Source: Crocinitomicaceae bacterium
GTDB taxonomy: Bacteria > Bacteroidota > Bacteroidia > Flavobacteriales_D > Crocinitomicaceae
Length of the DNA: 56,718 bases
Direction of reading: 5' to 3'
Assembly (NCBI GenBank): GCA_029252405.1
Contig: JAQXBM010000067.1
Location: 1-56,718, forward strand
In this document: piece by piece, positions 16,019 through 46,905 of the stretch
Numbering within the stretch: position 1 is the first letter of the stretch
Layout of the letters: the number at the start of each line of letters is the position of its first letter
Notes under the pieces: generated by a model
Databases searched by the model: none
The model's input: the letters and a program-made list of their open reading frames with translations, nothing else
Told to the model about the DNA's origin: nothing
Translations under genes and position numbers: made by a program

Positions 16019-16609
16019 ATGCGGTTGATTCGACCACAATATAAAACGCTGTCTGATGAAGATTTGATGATTGCTGTTGGTAAAGGCGACCAACGCGCAT
16101 TCGATGAAATCTATAATCGGTACTCAGGTCCATTATTGGGCTACTTCATTCGTATGCTCTGGAAAGACCGCGAAAAAGCGGAAGATTTTGTACACGATAT
16201 CTTCGCGAAGATTGTTCGAAAGCCTGAATTGTTCGATCCGAAAAGAAAGTTTAAAACATGGGTTTATTCCGTTGCGAATAACATGTGTAAGAACGAATAC
16301 AAGAAACAAGAAGTTCGAAAAAATACGTCGAATGGATTGGATGAACACTATGCAATCGGCGATACAAACACCGATGTTTTTGGAGAAGTGCAAGACCGCT
16401 TTTTCAGAGAAGAGTTTGAACAAAGCTTAGACGCCTTGGACACGAAACACAGTGAGGCGTTCAAATTAAGACACATTGAAGGATTCTCGATTAAGGAAAT
16501 CGCGGAAGTCCTCGAAATTAGTGATGGTACCGTTAAGTCACGTTTGTTTTACGCAACGAAGTACCTCGCGGAGAGTTTAAAAGAATTTAACCCTGTAATG
16601 AATAGATGA
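16019..16609 (+). CDS. ECF-type RNA polymerase sigma factor
   Basis: The 196-residue protein has region 2 (DQRAFDEIYNRYSGPLLGYF, then EDFVHDIFAKIV and FKTWVYSVANNMCKNEYKK, about 25-100) and region 4 (EAFKLRHIEGFSIKEIAEVL, then SDGTVKSRLFYA, about 143-180), the two-domain form of extracytoplasmic-function sigma factors. Its ATG directly follows the stop of the secreted protein gene, and its stop is one base before the next start, making a tight three-gene unit. The partner anti-sigma is presumably the one-helix protein downstream, although that lacks a recognisable zinc anti-sigma motif. Promoter targets are unknown. Confidence 0.94.
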   Translation: MRLIRPQYKTLSDEDLMIAVGKGDQRAFDEIYNRYSGPLLGYFIRMLWKDREKAEDFVHDIFAKIVRKPELFDPKRKFKTWVYSVANNMCKNEYKKQEVRKNTSNGLDEHYAIGDTNTDVFGEVQDRFFREEFEQSLDALDTKHSEAFKLRHIEGFSIKEIAEVLEISDGTVKSRLFYATKYLAESLKEFNPVMNR

Positions 16610-16610
16610 T

Positions 16611-17387
16611 ATGGAAAGGGATGTAATGGATATCGTAAGAGAAAAGGAATTTATCGAGTTGTCGGCTGCCGAGCGCGCTGAGTTGGGTGAATTGTGCTCT
16701 TCTGAGGATGAGTATAACCAAGTGAAGGCAATGTTCGCAGGAATTAGCGCGATGGATTGGTCAAATCCAACACCAAAAGCCGAAACGAAAGAAAGTTTGG
16801 ATCATCTGTTTGCTCAGAAGCATCCGAAAGCTGCGCCGATTTGGTACAACGCACCATTGGCAGTACTTGCACCAAAAGGTAAGCCGTTTTATCGTCAGCC
16901 CTTGGTGCAAGCGGCAGCGGTTGGTTTGTTGATTTTCTTAGCGTACCCATTCATGAATTCGGATGTGATGACTTCTGATACAGCACAAGTTGCTGTGTTG
17001 GAAAAAGAGAGCACATCATCTGAGTTGAAAGAGGTTGATGGGAAAGTAAGTGACGATATGGATACATCTTCTAAAGAGGATGTAAACGGACAAGATGATA
17101 CTTCGATTGAAACGAGATCTGAAGTTTTTACTCCAAGCGAATTTACTTCAGAACCGGCAAAACCTGTTTCGACAGCTTCTTTAACTCCAAGAGATTTAGT
17201 TTCAGCGGTTACTGAGGAGACAACCTTCCGTAAGGAATCAGAAATTCTGTTGAGTTCTGCAGGAAGTGCTTCTGAACCAGGATCGACGCATCCAGACGGT
17301 ATTTTTGTTGGTGATAAAGCGGAAATCTTTTCTGTTCCTGCGAGCAGAGAGCCTGCAGTATTTGATTTGTTGACTTCGACGTTTTAA
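16611..17387 (+). CDS. One-helix membrane protein, likely anti-sigma factor
   Basis: A 258-residue protein with a cytoplasmic-looking N-terminal part of about 100 residues (EFIELSAAERAELGELCSSE), one membrane helix (LVQAAAVGLLIFLAYPF, about 103-119) and a Ser/Thr/Glu-rich, probably disordered periplasmic tail of about 130 residues. This topology and its position right after an ECF sigma factor are those of anti-sigma factors. The N-terminus lacks the HxxxCxxC motif of zinc anti-sigma proteins; it is acidic and helical. An in-frame ATG 15 nt downstream (MDIVREKEF) is an alternative start with a better purine-rich leader. Function is inferred from context and topology. Confidence 0.7.
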   Translation: MERDVMDIVREKEFIELSAAERAELGELCSSEDEYNQVKAMFAGISAMDWSNPTPKAETKESLDHLFAQKHPKAAPIWYNAPLAVLAPKGKPFYRQPLVQAAAVGLLIFLAYPFMNSDVMTSDTAQVAVLEKESTSSELKEVDGKVSDDMDTSSKEDVNGQDDTSIETRSEVFTPSEFTSEPAKPVSTASLTPRDLVSAVTEETTFRKESEILLSSAGSASEPGSTHPDGIFVGDKAEIFSVPASREPAVFDLLTSTF

Positions 17388-43921: not shown

Positions 43922-45232
43922 TTAATTCATTGTAATTGTTCCTCGGTACTCATTTGGTTCATTTGCCGCAGGATTTGAAATCACTGCTTTCCAAACATAT
44001 ACTTGAGGAGTTTCACTTCTTCGTCCTGAGCGGATATCTGTTCCGTCCCATGGAAGTGAAGCATCATTCGTTTGATACACAACCCCGCCATCGCGACCAT
44101 CGATAATAGTCAAGACAAAGTTTACATCTGCACGTTGCGTTAAAGCAAACGGCATGAATGTTTGATTACGAGGATCGACACTAGTTGGAGTGAAGGCATT
44201 CACCGCCATCAAGTTGTAATCTTCTTCAACATAAATTGTTTTTTCTACTGAAGCCTCACATTGTCCGTTATTCACAGTCAAGGTAATTGTTTTATCTCCT
44301 TTGTTGTAGAAGTGAAGGTCCGTTTCAACACCATTAGACGATTGCTTTTCAGCAGTCCAGGTGTAGGTTCCTTCTCCGTTGATCGCTGCAACATACGTTA
44401 CAGGCAATCCATTTTCGTATTTATTTGCTAAATCTACTGTGAAAGCAGCATCTGGTATACGATTCACAATGAAGTTTGAAGATGATTCAATTGTTCCATC
44501 ATTTTTGTATCCGAGAGAATAATTTCCAACTGTCGATGGTTTGAAAACAACTGCTTTGTTAGCAGGAATCGTTTTCATGATATTACCAACAGCATCTATA
44601 ATGTAGATTTCCTTGTTATTTGGATTCGAAATTGTCGCTTCCTCATTTAAACAAAGATCTTCAACAGCAGGGATTGTCATTTTCGCAGGAACATCCGCTG
44701 GAACGTGGTTTACATTGTTCTGAGTTCCTGAATTCCCATTAGCACCGTTTGATTGAGTACTAGTAGTTGTGGTATTGCTTTGATTAGTCGTTTCATTTGG
44801 AACATTTGTAGACGTCCCTTGATTGGTGTTCGTCTGCGTATTTCCTTGATCAACGCTAGAACCCTGTGATCCCTCGTCCTGTGAAATGGGAGTTTCGCTT
44901 GGATTCGAGATCACAGAAGTGTTGCCCTTTTGGGCGTCACTATTACCAATAGAAGGTTTAGTTGTATCGGCAGTAGTTTGTTCTAGTGTAGTTTCTTTTG
45001 CAACAGGTACTTTCGTTTCTTCTGGAGTTCCACCAGCAAAAATGAAATAGGATGCAACAGCAACAGCGCCAATTCCTGCGGCACCGAGATAATATCTTAA
45101 ATAGGAAGTAGGCTTAGCGACTGGGCTTGCGACATCTAGTCGAGCGCTCATCGCTTTCCAAGCTTCAGGATTGTATGGCATTTCGTGACCTTGCAAGCTT
45201 TGCTTAAATAATTCCTCAATAGGTTCTTTCAT
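43922..45232 (-). CDS. Membrane anti-sigma-like protein with PKD-like region and T9SS type B/CHU_C C-terminal domain
   Basis: Starting MKEPIEELFKQSLQGHEMPY, the protein (436 residues) has a short cytoplasmic anti-sigma-like head with the motif PEAWKAMSARLD. One membrane helix (YLGAAGIGAVAVASYFIF, about 48-65) follows, then a Thr/Asn/Gln/Ser-rich linker (about 75-180) and PKD-like strands (FTVDLANKYENGLPVTYVAA, YTWTAEKQSS). The last 95 residues read VNAFTPTSVDPRNQTFMPFA, VLTIIDGRDGGVVYQTNDAS, LPWDGTD and YVWKAVI..YRGTITMN. This is the gliding-motility/CHU_C domain used as the T9SS type B signal. It begins one base after the sigma stop; the longer TTG start is not used. A membrane-anchored protein ending in a T9SS signal is unusual. 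Confidence 0.85.
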   Translation of the reverse strand: MKEPIEELFKQSLQGHEMPYNPEAWKAMSARLDVASPVAKPTSYLRYYLGAAGIGAVAVASYFIFAGGTPEETKVPVAKETTLEQTTADTTKPSIGNSDAQKGNTSVISNPSETPISQDEGSQGSSVDQGNTQTNTNQGTSTNVPNETTNQSNTTTTSTQSNGANGNSGTQNNVNHVPADVPAKMTIPAVEDLCLNEEATISNPNNKEIYIIDAVGNIMKTIPANKAVVFKPSTVGNYSLGYKNDGTIESSSNFIVNRIPDAAFTVDLANKYENGLPVTYVAAINGEGTYTWTAEKQSSNGVETDLHFYNKGDKTITLTVNNGQCEASVEKTIYVEEDYNLMAVNAFTPTSVDPRNQTFMPFALTQRADVNFVLTIIDGRDGGVVYQTNDASLPWDGTDIRSGRRSETPQVYVWKAVISNPAANEPNEYRGTITMN

Positions 45233-45233
45233 A

Positions 45234-45827
45234 TCAATCAATGTTCATGAACTTTTCTTTTAAGACCTTCTGCAAGTTCATTTTTGCTTTTGATAAATTA
45301 GATTTCGACGTTCCTTCGCTAATACCTAAGATTTCAGCAATCTCTTTATGGGTATAATCTTCTAGAACGTACAGATTGAAAACTGCTTTGTAGGCTGGTG
45401 ACAACTGGTTAATTGCTTCCATCGCTATTTCAGCTTTCATTCCGAGGGCTTCAAATTCTTCACTTATGACTATTGGGTCTTCGGCTCCGAGTTTAAAATC
45501 CTCATCATTATCCGTTAACATTGGATTCTTTTTTGACTTTCTGATGCTATCAATCGCCGTATTCGACATGATTCTTCGCATCCATCCTTCAAATGAACCC
45601 TTATAATTAAACGCTTCTAATTTGTCAAAGATCTTAATAAAACCTTCCTGAAGAACTTCTTCTGCTGAATCCCGGTCTGTCGTGTAACGCATACAAACAC
45701 TCAACATCATACCATAATAAAGCTTAAACAACTCTTCCTGAGAGCGACGGTTGTTTTTGAGGCAACCGCTTATTATTTGCTTTAAATGCTCTTTGTTCTC
45801 CACTCTTGTTTCGTTAATTAGACGCAC
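45234..45827 (-). CDS. ECF-type RNA polymerase sigma factor
   Basis: A 197-residue sigma factor with region 2 (SQEELFKLYYGMMLSVCMRY, then SAEEVLQEGFIKIFDKLEAF and FEGWMRRIMSNTAIDSIRKS, about 29-100) and region 4 (INQLSPAYKAVFNLYVLEDY, THKEIAEILGISEGTSKSNL, about 140-180). It starts with GTG (45825-45827), no ATG being available upstream of the conserved part. The downstream gene begins one base after its stop and is an anti-sigma-like membrane protein, so the two form a regulatory pair. The region between it and mdh (45828-45966) must hold divergent promoters; I see a TATTTTG near-match for this gene but no perfect consensus. Confidence 0.93.
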   Translation of the reverse strand: MRLINETRVENKEHLKQIISGCLKNNRRSQEELFKLYYGMMLSVCMRYTTDRDSAEEVLQEGFIKIFDKLEAFNYKGSFEGWMRRIMSNTAIDSIRKSKKNPMLTDNDEDFKLGAEDPIVISEEFEALGMKAEIAMEAINQLSPAYKAVFNLYVLEDYTHKEIAEILGISEGTSKSNLSKAKMNLQKVLKEKFMNID

Positions 45828-45915
45828 GTTGATTTACGACGTTGCCTTGATTCTCAGTTTTTTGTTATTTCCATGAAAACTTGTCGCAAAATAAGGGTTT
45901 TTGGAACAAATGTGT

Positions 45916-45966: not shown

Positions 45967-46905
45967 ATGAAAGTAACGGTCGTAGGAGCAGGAAACGTAG
46001 GTGCAACATGCGCAAACGTATTAGCTCACAAAGAAATTGCGAATGAAATCGTATTACTAGATATCAAAGAAGGATTTGCAGAAGGTAAAGCATTAGATAT
46101 TTGGGAAACATCACCAATCAACTTGTATGATTCTCGTACGGTAGGTTCAACTAATGATTACTCAAAGACAGCAAACTCTGAAGTTGTTGTTATTACATCT
46201 GGGTTGCCAAGAAAACCAGGCATGTCTCGGGATGACTTAATCGCGACGAATGCAGGAATCGTGAAAATGGTAACTGAGAACATCGTTAAGTACTCGCCAG
46301 ACGCGAAAATCATTATCGTTTCAAATCCATTGGACGTAATGACTTACTGTTCTTACTTGACAGCGAAAATCGATTCAAGCAAAGTATTTGGAATGGCTGG
46401 AGTATTGGATACTGCCCGTTACCGTTCTTTCCTTGCATTGGAATTGAACGTTTCTCCAAAAGATATCCAAGCGGTATTGATGGGAGGTCACGGAGATACA
46501 ATGGTTCCACTTCCACGTTACACAACTGTGGGTGGTATTCCAGTTACTGAGTTGATCGAAGAAGATAAATTGAACGAAATCATCGAGCGTACGAAGTTCG
46601 GAGGTGGAGAAATCGTTAAGTTACTTGGAACATCTGCATGGTACGCTCCTGGAGCTGCTGCAGCGCAAATGGTTGAAGCAATTGTGCGTGATCAAAAACG
46701 TGTTTTCCCAGTTTGTACTTGGTTGCAAGGTGAATACGGATATAAAGATATCTATCTCGGAGTACCTGTAGTACTTGGTAAAAACGGAATCGAGAAAATC
46801 ATCCAACTACAATTGAACGAAGACGAGAAAGCTTTATTGGCTGAATCAGTTGAAGCTGTTCGTAACGTAATGGGTGTTTTAGATAATATGAACGTAGGAG
46901 CGTAA
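45967..46905 (+). CDS. mdh: Malate dehydrogenase
   Basis: Mdh oxidises malate to oxaloacetate in the citric acid cycle. The protein (312 residues) shows the NAD-binding loop VVGAGNVGATCANVLAHKEI (about 4-23), LLDIKEGFAEGKALD with the cofactor-selecting aspartate, SGLPRKPGMSRDDLIATNAG (about 79-98; substrate-binding arginines), VSNPLDVMTYCSY and the catalytic histidine in VLMGGHGDTMVPL (about 171-183). It is the LDH-like Mdh type. A strong terminator follows. Confidence 0.98.
   Translation: MKVTVVGAGNVGATCANVLAHKEIANEIVLLDIKEGFAEGKALDIWETSPINLYDSRTVGSTNDYSKTANSEVVVITSGLPRKPGMSRDDLIATNAGIVKMVTENIVKYSPDAKIIIVSNPLDVMTYCSYLTAKIDSSKVFGMAGVLDTARYRSFLALELNVSPKDIQAVLMGGHGDTMVPLPRYTTVGGIPVTELIEEDKLNEIIERTKFGGGEIVKLLGTSAWYAPGAAAAQMVEAIVRDQKRVFPVCTWLQGEYGYKDIYLGVPVVLGKNGIEKIIQLQLNEDEKALLAESVEAVRNVMGVLDNMNVGA

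Follow-up and report, generated by a model that had tools for sequence, protein, structure and literature searches.

A 56,718-nucleotide stretch of a Crocinitomicaceae bacterium genome (GenBank assembly GCA_029252405.1, contig JAQXBM010000067.1, positions 1 to 56,718; the whole stretch is hereafter the window) carries two adjacent minus-strand genes, together spanning 43922-45827, that encode an extracytoplasmic function (ECF) sigma factor and a 436-residue, membrane-anchored, anti-sigma-like protein. On profile comparison, the tail of the latter is homologous to the type B C-terminal domains (CTDs) of the type 9 secretion system (T9SS), and the pairing of an ECF sigma factor with such a CHU_C-tailed membrane protein is old and widely conserved. 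The explanation that we tentatively place first is an autoregulated ECF sigma/anti-sigma system built on the plan of the Dma anti-sigma factors of Bacteroides (PMC13088901; here and below, statements about cited papers cover the portions of them available), with a tail that would act as a T9SS pseudo-substrate at the outer membrane. T9SS sensing by the pair is plausible; its anti-sigma activity, docking partner, signal and targets are what we infer from this arrangement.

A sigma factor gene followed by a membrane protein with a CTD-like tail

The sigma gene comes first and the gene of the 436-residue protein follows after a single base, the sigma open reading frame (ORF) ending at 45234 and the ATG of the membrane protein lying at 45232. 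The product of 45234..45827 is an ECF sigma factor, with sigma regions 2 and 4 both present (Sigma70_r2, 8.4e-16, and r4_2, 2.2e-17, in Pfam; TIGR02937, 1.1e-30, in NCBIfam). The features of the locus are as follows.

45234..45803, minus strand: ECF sigma factor gene (Pfam/NCBIfam; open frame from GTG 45827, likely start GTG 45803)
43922..45232, minus strand: membrane-anchored anti-sigma-like protein, 436 residues (alignments and structure model)
45125..45232, minus strand: cytoplasmic head, residues 1-36, two helices, putative sigma-binding domain (two alignments, model and head profile)
45041..45100, minus strand: transmembrane helix, residues 45-64 (model and hydropathy)
44687..45034, minus strand: Thr/Asn/Gln-rich disordered linker, residues 67-182 (predicted local distance difference test, pLDDT, < 50 over most of 70-174)
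44462..44686, minus strand: first PKD/Ig-like domain, residues 183-257, with invariant Cys194 (alignment and model)
44219..44461, minus strand: second PKD domain, residues 258-338, with invariant Cys325
43925..44218, minus strand: T9SS type B CTD (CHU_C)-like tail, residues 339-436 (profile comparison, family scans and structure matches)
45821..45848, minus strand: predicted ECF autopromoter, AAGGCAAC-N16-CGTC, 5' of the sigma gene (conserved dyad)
45967..46905, plus strand: lactate/malate dehydrogenase-family gene, divergent conserved neighbour of the sigma pair (homologue on the opposite strand in other loci, counted below)

A preliminary description of this DNA, made from its letters alone, had proposed both this gene order and the membrane protein's layout of short head, one transmembrane helix, linker, PKD-like strands and C-terminal domain; coordinates and family scans bear out the former, alignments and an AlphaFold2 model the latter. 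The model, computed from a 56-sequence alignment (the window protein and 55 of 77 homologues from named genomes), places head helices at residues 6-13 and 22-34 and the membrane helix at 45-64, has low confidence over most of 70-174, and resolves beta domains over residues 190-436, where pLDDT mostly exceeds 90. The linker (equivalent to residues 67-185) measures 89-121 residues in the 56 aligned sequences, with a median of 107. Because the first 44 residues are hydrophilic, with Lys/Arg ahead of a hydrophobic helix that begins only at residue 45 (as read from sequence and model rather than from a dedicated signal-peptide predictor), the protein is probably oriented with its N-terminus in the cytoplasm. 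Trp25 of the head is invariant in both a 29-sequence and the 56-sequence alignment. So are Cys194 and Cys325, one in each PKD/Ig-like domain; in three homologues (L029, L036 and L132) the head is tandemly duplicated before the membrane helix and might hold two sigma molecules.

The C-terminus consists of PKD domains and a CHU_C-like beta domain, with no outer-membrane beta-barrel there. The motifs from which the preliminary description recognized a type B tail lie at residues 347-435, and it had suggested a check against TIGR04131 and PF13585. The window copy itself matches neither family even at E <= 10 and is absent from the 48 TIGR04131 matches of its own genome. In a diverse 29-member alignment of homologues, PF13585 matches 21 and TIGR04131 matches 14 at E <= 10, and the canonical NGDGxND form occurs among homologues from other families. 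When 20 tails of the window lineage are compared, profile to profile (hhalign), with 28 CTDs of cargo proteins encoded in the same genome, the result is 98.6% (E 1.2e-15), against 0.6% (E 0.094) for the adjoining PKD-like domain used as a control. Single-sequence scans with hidden Markov models thus miss the tail of the window copy, and it is the profile comparison that establishes the CTD relationship. Structure searches add less: with the tail alone, T9SS CTDs appear among generic beta-sandwiches, with unrelated matches at similar Z, and Foldseek gives no match at E <= 0.001, and a fold search with the whole model is filled by PKD/fibronectin-like repeats and does not resolve the tail.

Conservation, relatives and promoter of the pair

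For locus counts we took the best 80 of 151 relatives in named genomes, mostly metagenome-assembled genomes titled Flavobacteriales, Crocinitomicaceae or Fluviicola with a few isolates, Brumimicrobium among them (certain titles, for example Kuenenia, look mislabelled). A sigma gene lies directly upstream in 76 of these 80 loci (75 scored by script, L081 by eye), and the other four end at a contig edge. The same holds for 19 of 20 loci that belong to further families of the order (L143 is cut) and for 19/19 loci from a class-wide search (one from the window family, two from the window order and the remaining 16 from different families of the class). The class search found a near full-length match in a frame of < 520 residues in at least 53 of 295 genomes; it also picks up cargo, since the class has numerous long proteins that match the PKD part as well as the CHU_C part. 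Matches in 150/150 genomes of the family likewise include CHU_C cargo and were not used as an orthologue count. A phylum-wide search at E <= 1e-50, a threshold too strict to exclude relatives elsewhere, gave matches in 3/148 genomes, all of the window order.

Ordinary T9SS cargo that sits beside a sigma gene by chance is therefore a very improbable account of the protein: the long class proteins with both parts lend it some colour, but the sigma neighbour is conserved across many families, the hydrophilic 44-residue N-terminus with an internal membrane helix is unlike a typical signal peptide, and the tail lacks the RWG motif discussed below. These three features contradict the cargo reading.

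On the other side of the sigma gene, an oppositely oriented gene of malate dehydrogenase type occurs in 72 of the 80 named loci (it was not found in 8), in 13 of the 20 order loci and, within 1.5-kb flanks, in 8 of the 19 class-search loci.

The same genome has 30 sigma matches, and in a tree of 27 of them (L225, L226 and L253 left out) the window sigma and its five nearest relatives form one clade (support 97/91). Each of the five precedes a protein of the same general plan, and the tails vary. Downstream of one sigma lies L233 (G000:C21:33266-34135), a 290-residue protein with head, membrane helix and CHU_C tail that scores 50.5 bits against PF13585 (cut-off 27) and 33.0 and 35.9 bits in two scans against TIGR04131 (cut-off 35). 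This short type has matches in 89/100 family genomes, CHU_C-only matches included, and a sigma gene adjoins it in 24 of 25 fetched loci, the remaining one (L278) lying at a contig start. Three others (L231, L235 and L239) have a membrane helix, a linker and what, judged from sequence, is a barrel-like tail, with only weak family matches (PF13568, 0.015, in L235; PF01617, 0.0052, in L231) and none to a barrel family for L239 in the Pfam scan. At the fifth locus (L238, G000:C62 near 102061), the ECF sigma gene is followed by a protein with a membrane helix and a VWA domain (PF12450, 8.4e-38), perhaps a VWA-tailed anti-sigma factor. Within the clade, whose inner branches are weak, the L233 sigma pairs with that of barrel-tailed L239 (92/86), so that the CHU_C tail may have been gained twice, independently. 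Elsewhere in the window, at 16019-17387 on the plus strand, another ECF sigma gene is followed by a protein with one transmembrane segment, forming a second sigma/anti-sigma-like pair whose sigma falls outside this clade.

The survey of sigma-adjacent proteins with a membrane helix and this tail that the preliminary description called for thus yields both a pair conserved across many families and a second CHU_C-tailed lineage in the same genome; related sigma-linked proteins that lack the tail, one half of a refuting observation that it had named, also occur there, as barrel-like and VWA-tailed forms.

A head profile run over 29 sigma-downstream ORFs ranks L233 (3.2e-5) and L231 (1.1e-4) directly below the window protein, which was in the training set, with L235 (0.056) close to the unrelated L246 (0.11) and L239 and L238 in the noise. 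These matches bear on whether the membrane protein is an anti-sigma factor at all or instead a co-transcribed envelope protein or sigma target. The latter would fit Pfam and NCBIfam scans of the 436-residue protein, which returned nothing meaningful and no anti-sigma family model, but we consider it quite improbable: the head, with its invariant Trp, is conserved beside a sigma gene in every assessable named locus, it is common to two other sigma-linked proteins of the genome, and the overall plan equals that of the Dma anti-sigma factors.

The dyad CAAC-N16-CGT recurs ahead of the sigma gene, in 67 of 76 upstream regions; no dyad exceeds 18 in one set of shuffled sequences. A search of 34 genus genomes with the strict motif gives 22 matches, compared to 14 for a reversed control; 17 of the 22 precede a sigma gene matching the window sigma and 5 lie elsewhere. 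As the annotated GTG at 45827 overlaps the predicted -10 box, the true sigma start is probably GTG 45803. We take the conserved, promoter-like motif to point to autoregulation of the sigma gene, which we hold as one part of the explanation placed first and with the same reserve.

Absence of the RWG motif and the proposed link to T9SS

The sequence RWG is present in 42 of the 47 TIGR04131 matches of the genome other than L233 (26/28 and 16/19); of the remaining five, three have another residue before WG, L295 has RFG and L299, which at 12 bits is far under the TIGR04131 cut-off, has neither. It is found in none of 120 sigma-linked tails (0/56 in the window family, 0/39 in distant loci, made up of the 20 order and 19 class loci, and 0/25 of the short type), all of which differ in sequence but share ancestry and so are not independent. 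Other parts of the domain are kept: a simple WDG-like pattern occurs in 114/120 sigma-linked tails and 27/28 cargo tails, and an NGDG-like pattern in 0/56 tails of the window family (0/77 in its wider set), 16/39 of the distant long type, 13/25 of the short type and 11/28 of cargo. In Flavobacterium johnsoniae, the SprB CTD was no longer secreted once any one of five type B motifs had been changed (PMC12618676). The absence of RWG from sigma-linked tails leads us to infer that they were selected not to be exported, and suggests that the tail is a non-exported pseudo-substrate, or mimic.

Under the explanation placed first, the cytoplasmic head would hold the sigma factor at the inner membrane and the long disordered tether would cross the periplasm, with the PKD stalk and CTD-like domain replacing the outer-membrane beta-barrel of Dma. 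The tail, a tethered and non-exportable pseudo-substrate, would dock with an outer-membrane component of the T9SS, for which a PorP/SprF-type carrier or the SprA translocon is the likeliest candidate; among seven scanned neighbours of the window gene none matched a PorP/SprF-type family, and three matched nothing at all. If real cargo competed with the tail, or if the docking partner were lost, the tension on the protein or its exposure would change and the sigma factor would be freed, to transcribe its own operon plus further targets. With slightly more reserve still, we propose that this inner-membrane-tethered decoy of a T9SS signal monitors how occupied or how healthy the T9SS at the outer membrane is, with a dedicated ECF sigma factor to pass the information on, and that the missing RWG in both sigma-linked lineages marks the change from cargo to sensor.

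SprA is found in 18/18 tested genomes with the full-length protein, a co-occurrence weakly compatible with a T9SS link.

Several results weigh against this explanation. Of 19 genomes tested that have no profile match (from a set of 23 without a match in the class search), 14 also encode SprA, so that T9SS presence is no predictor of the protein. A wider regulon was not found, as in the own genome a relaxed promoter motif gives 5 matches compared to 11 for the reversed control, and the strict motif occurs in 0/14 gldK loci, each with up to 1.5 kb of flanks; we therefore claim no regulon. A significant head match is seen in only two of the five relatives, and their tails differ (barrel-like or VWA), so the plan does not need a CHU_C tail in general. 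That RWG is one of the five motifs of PMC12618676 is a guess. Finally, type B CTDs are described as meeting their carriers at the surface, once they have been exported (PMC9143113, PMC12635249), and that is an awkward site for a tethered tail to dock.

The chief competing explanation keeps the sigma/anti-sigma pair and makes the CHU_C-like domain only an Ig-like scaffold or periplasmic ligand binder (for glycan, envelope stress or peptidoglycan), with no part in T9SS. The missing RWG, the lack of NGDG-like forms in the window family, the generic beta-sandwich fold, the unrelated tails of sister proteins and the T9SS regulon not seen in the own genome or the 14 gldK loci all speak for it. Yet both sigma-linked lineages carry the domain at the extreme C-terminus, as cargo does, and the WDG-like and NGDG-like patterns kept in so many tails seem to exceed the needs of a generic scaffold; we regard this alternative as possible, if doubtful. 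An unlikely alternative is that the tail is truly exported through SprA to the cell surface with the N-terminus in the cytoplasm, making the protein a T9SS-routed, dual-membrane-spanning reporter of surface conditions, a role also proposed for the Dma barrel. A tether of about 107 residues plus the PKD domains would be long enough, the domains of Dma proteins span the distance between cytosol and outer membrane (PMC13088901), and the tail retains most of the CTD core, but all 120 sigma-linked tails examined lack RWG and a plugged SprA pore would presumably be costly.

Comparison with known systems and significance

Dma anti-sigma factors combine a head, a transmembrane helix, a disordered tether and a C-terminal beta-barrel, and the Dma/ECF21 (Das) system of Bacteroides thetaiotaomicron shares with the window pair an N-terminal head (putatively sigma-binding in the window protein), the membrane helix, the long tether, a C-terminal beta domain, the adjacent ECF sigma factor and its place in the Bacteroidota (PMC13088901). 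The likeness extends to the barrel-like-tailed relatives in the genome, whose sigmas belong to the same clade as the window sigma, and the 1.1e-4 head-profile match is to one of them, in a comparison of own-genome proteins that included no Bacteroides Dma. The window protein differs in having a PKD stalk and a type B CTD-like domain instead of the beta-barrel, and it is not known to extend to the outer membrane. As it lacks a C-terminal barrel, it is not a Dma member; what is new is the Dma plan with a swapped tail, which suggests that Dma-like anti-sigma factors are modular, the head and tether being kept and the sensor tail exchanged. The preliminary description, which knew of no system of this form, was thus right about the homology of the tail and not about the overall plan; a search of the open-licence literature (titles and abstract openings) found no CTD-tailed anti-sigma factor described.

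A comparable plan is that of RsgI/SigI of Clostridium, with an anti-sigma head, a transmembrane helix and an extracellular sensor domain. Unlike the window protein, RsgI senses through a carbohydrate-binding module and belongs to a Gram-positive bacterium.

The C-terminal domain, homologous by profile to the T9SS type B CTDs (TIGR04131/PF13585, CHU_C; PMC12618676, PMC9143113), is set apart from cargo in that the window protein probably has a membrane tether where cargo has a signal peptide and lacks RWG. In Porphyromonas gingivalis, PorA-PorXY-SigP likewise has a T9SS CTD protein acting upstream of an ECF sigma factor for T9SS, as proposed for the window pair; PorA is a separate surface protein that works through a two-component system, with no anti-sigma head in the portion available, and its CTD binds PorV, which would make it type A (PMC7712824). 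At the promoter level, the predicted window autopromoter resembles the SM6 sECF promoters of Flavobacterium psychrophilum in its CGT -10 box, and those promoters serve T9SS genes and one ECF/anti-sigma pair (anti-sigma THC0290_1773; PMC9723704).

How the state of the T9SS is sensed seems largely open, and the one described route we found, PorA-PorXY-SigP, uses a two-component system. The pair is a conserved, genetically compact candidate T9SS sensor whose tail suggests its own partner, and RWG, kept or lost, may be a signature that separates exported CTDs from regulatory ones. If the decoy reading is true, Bacteroidota would have turned a T9SS secretion signal into a regulatory sensor.
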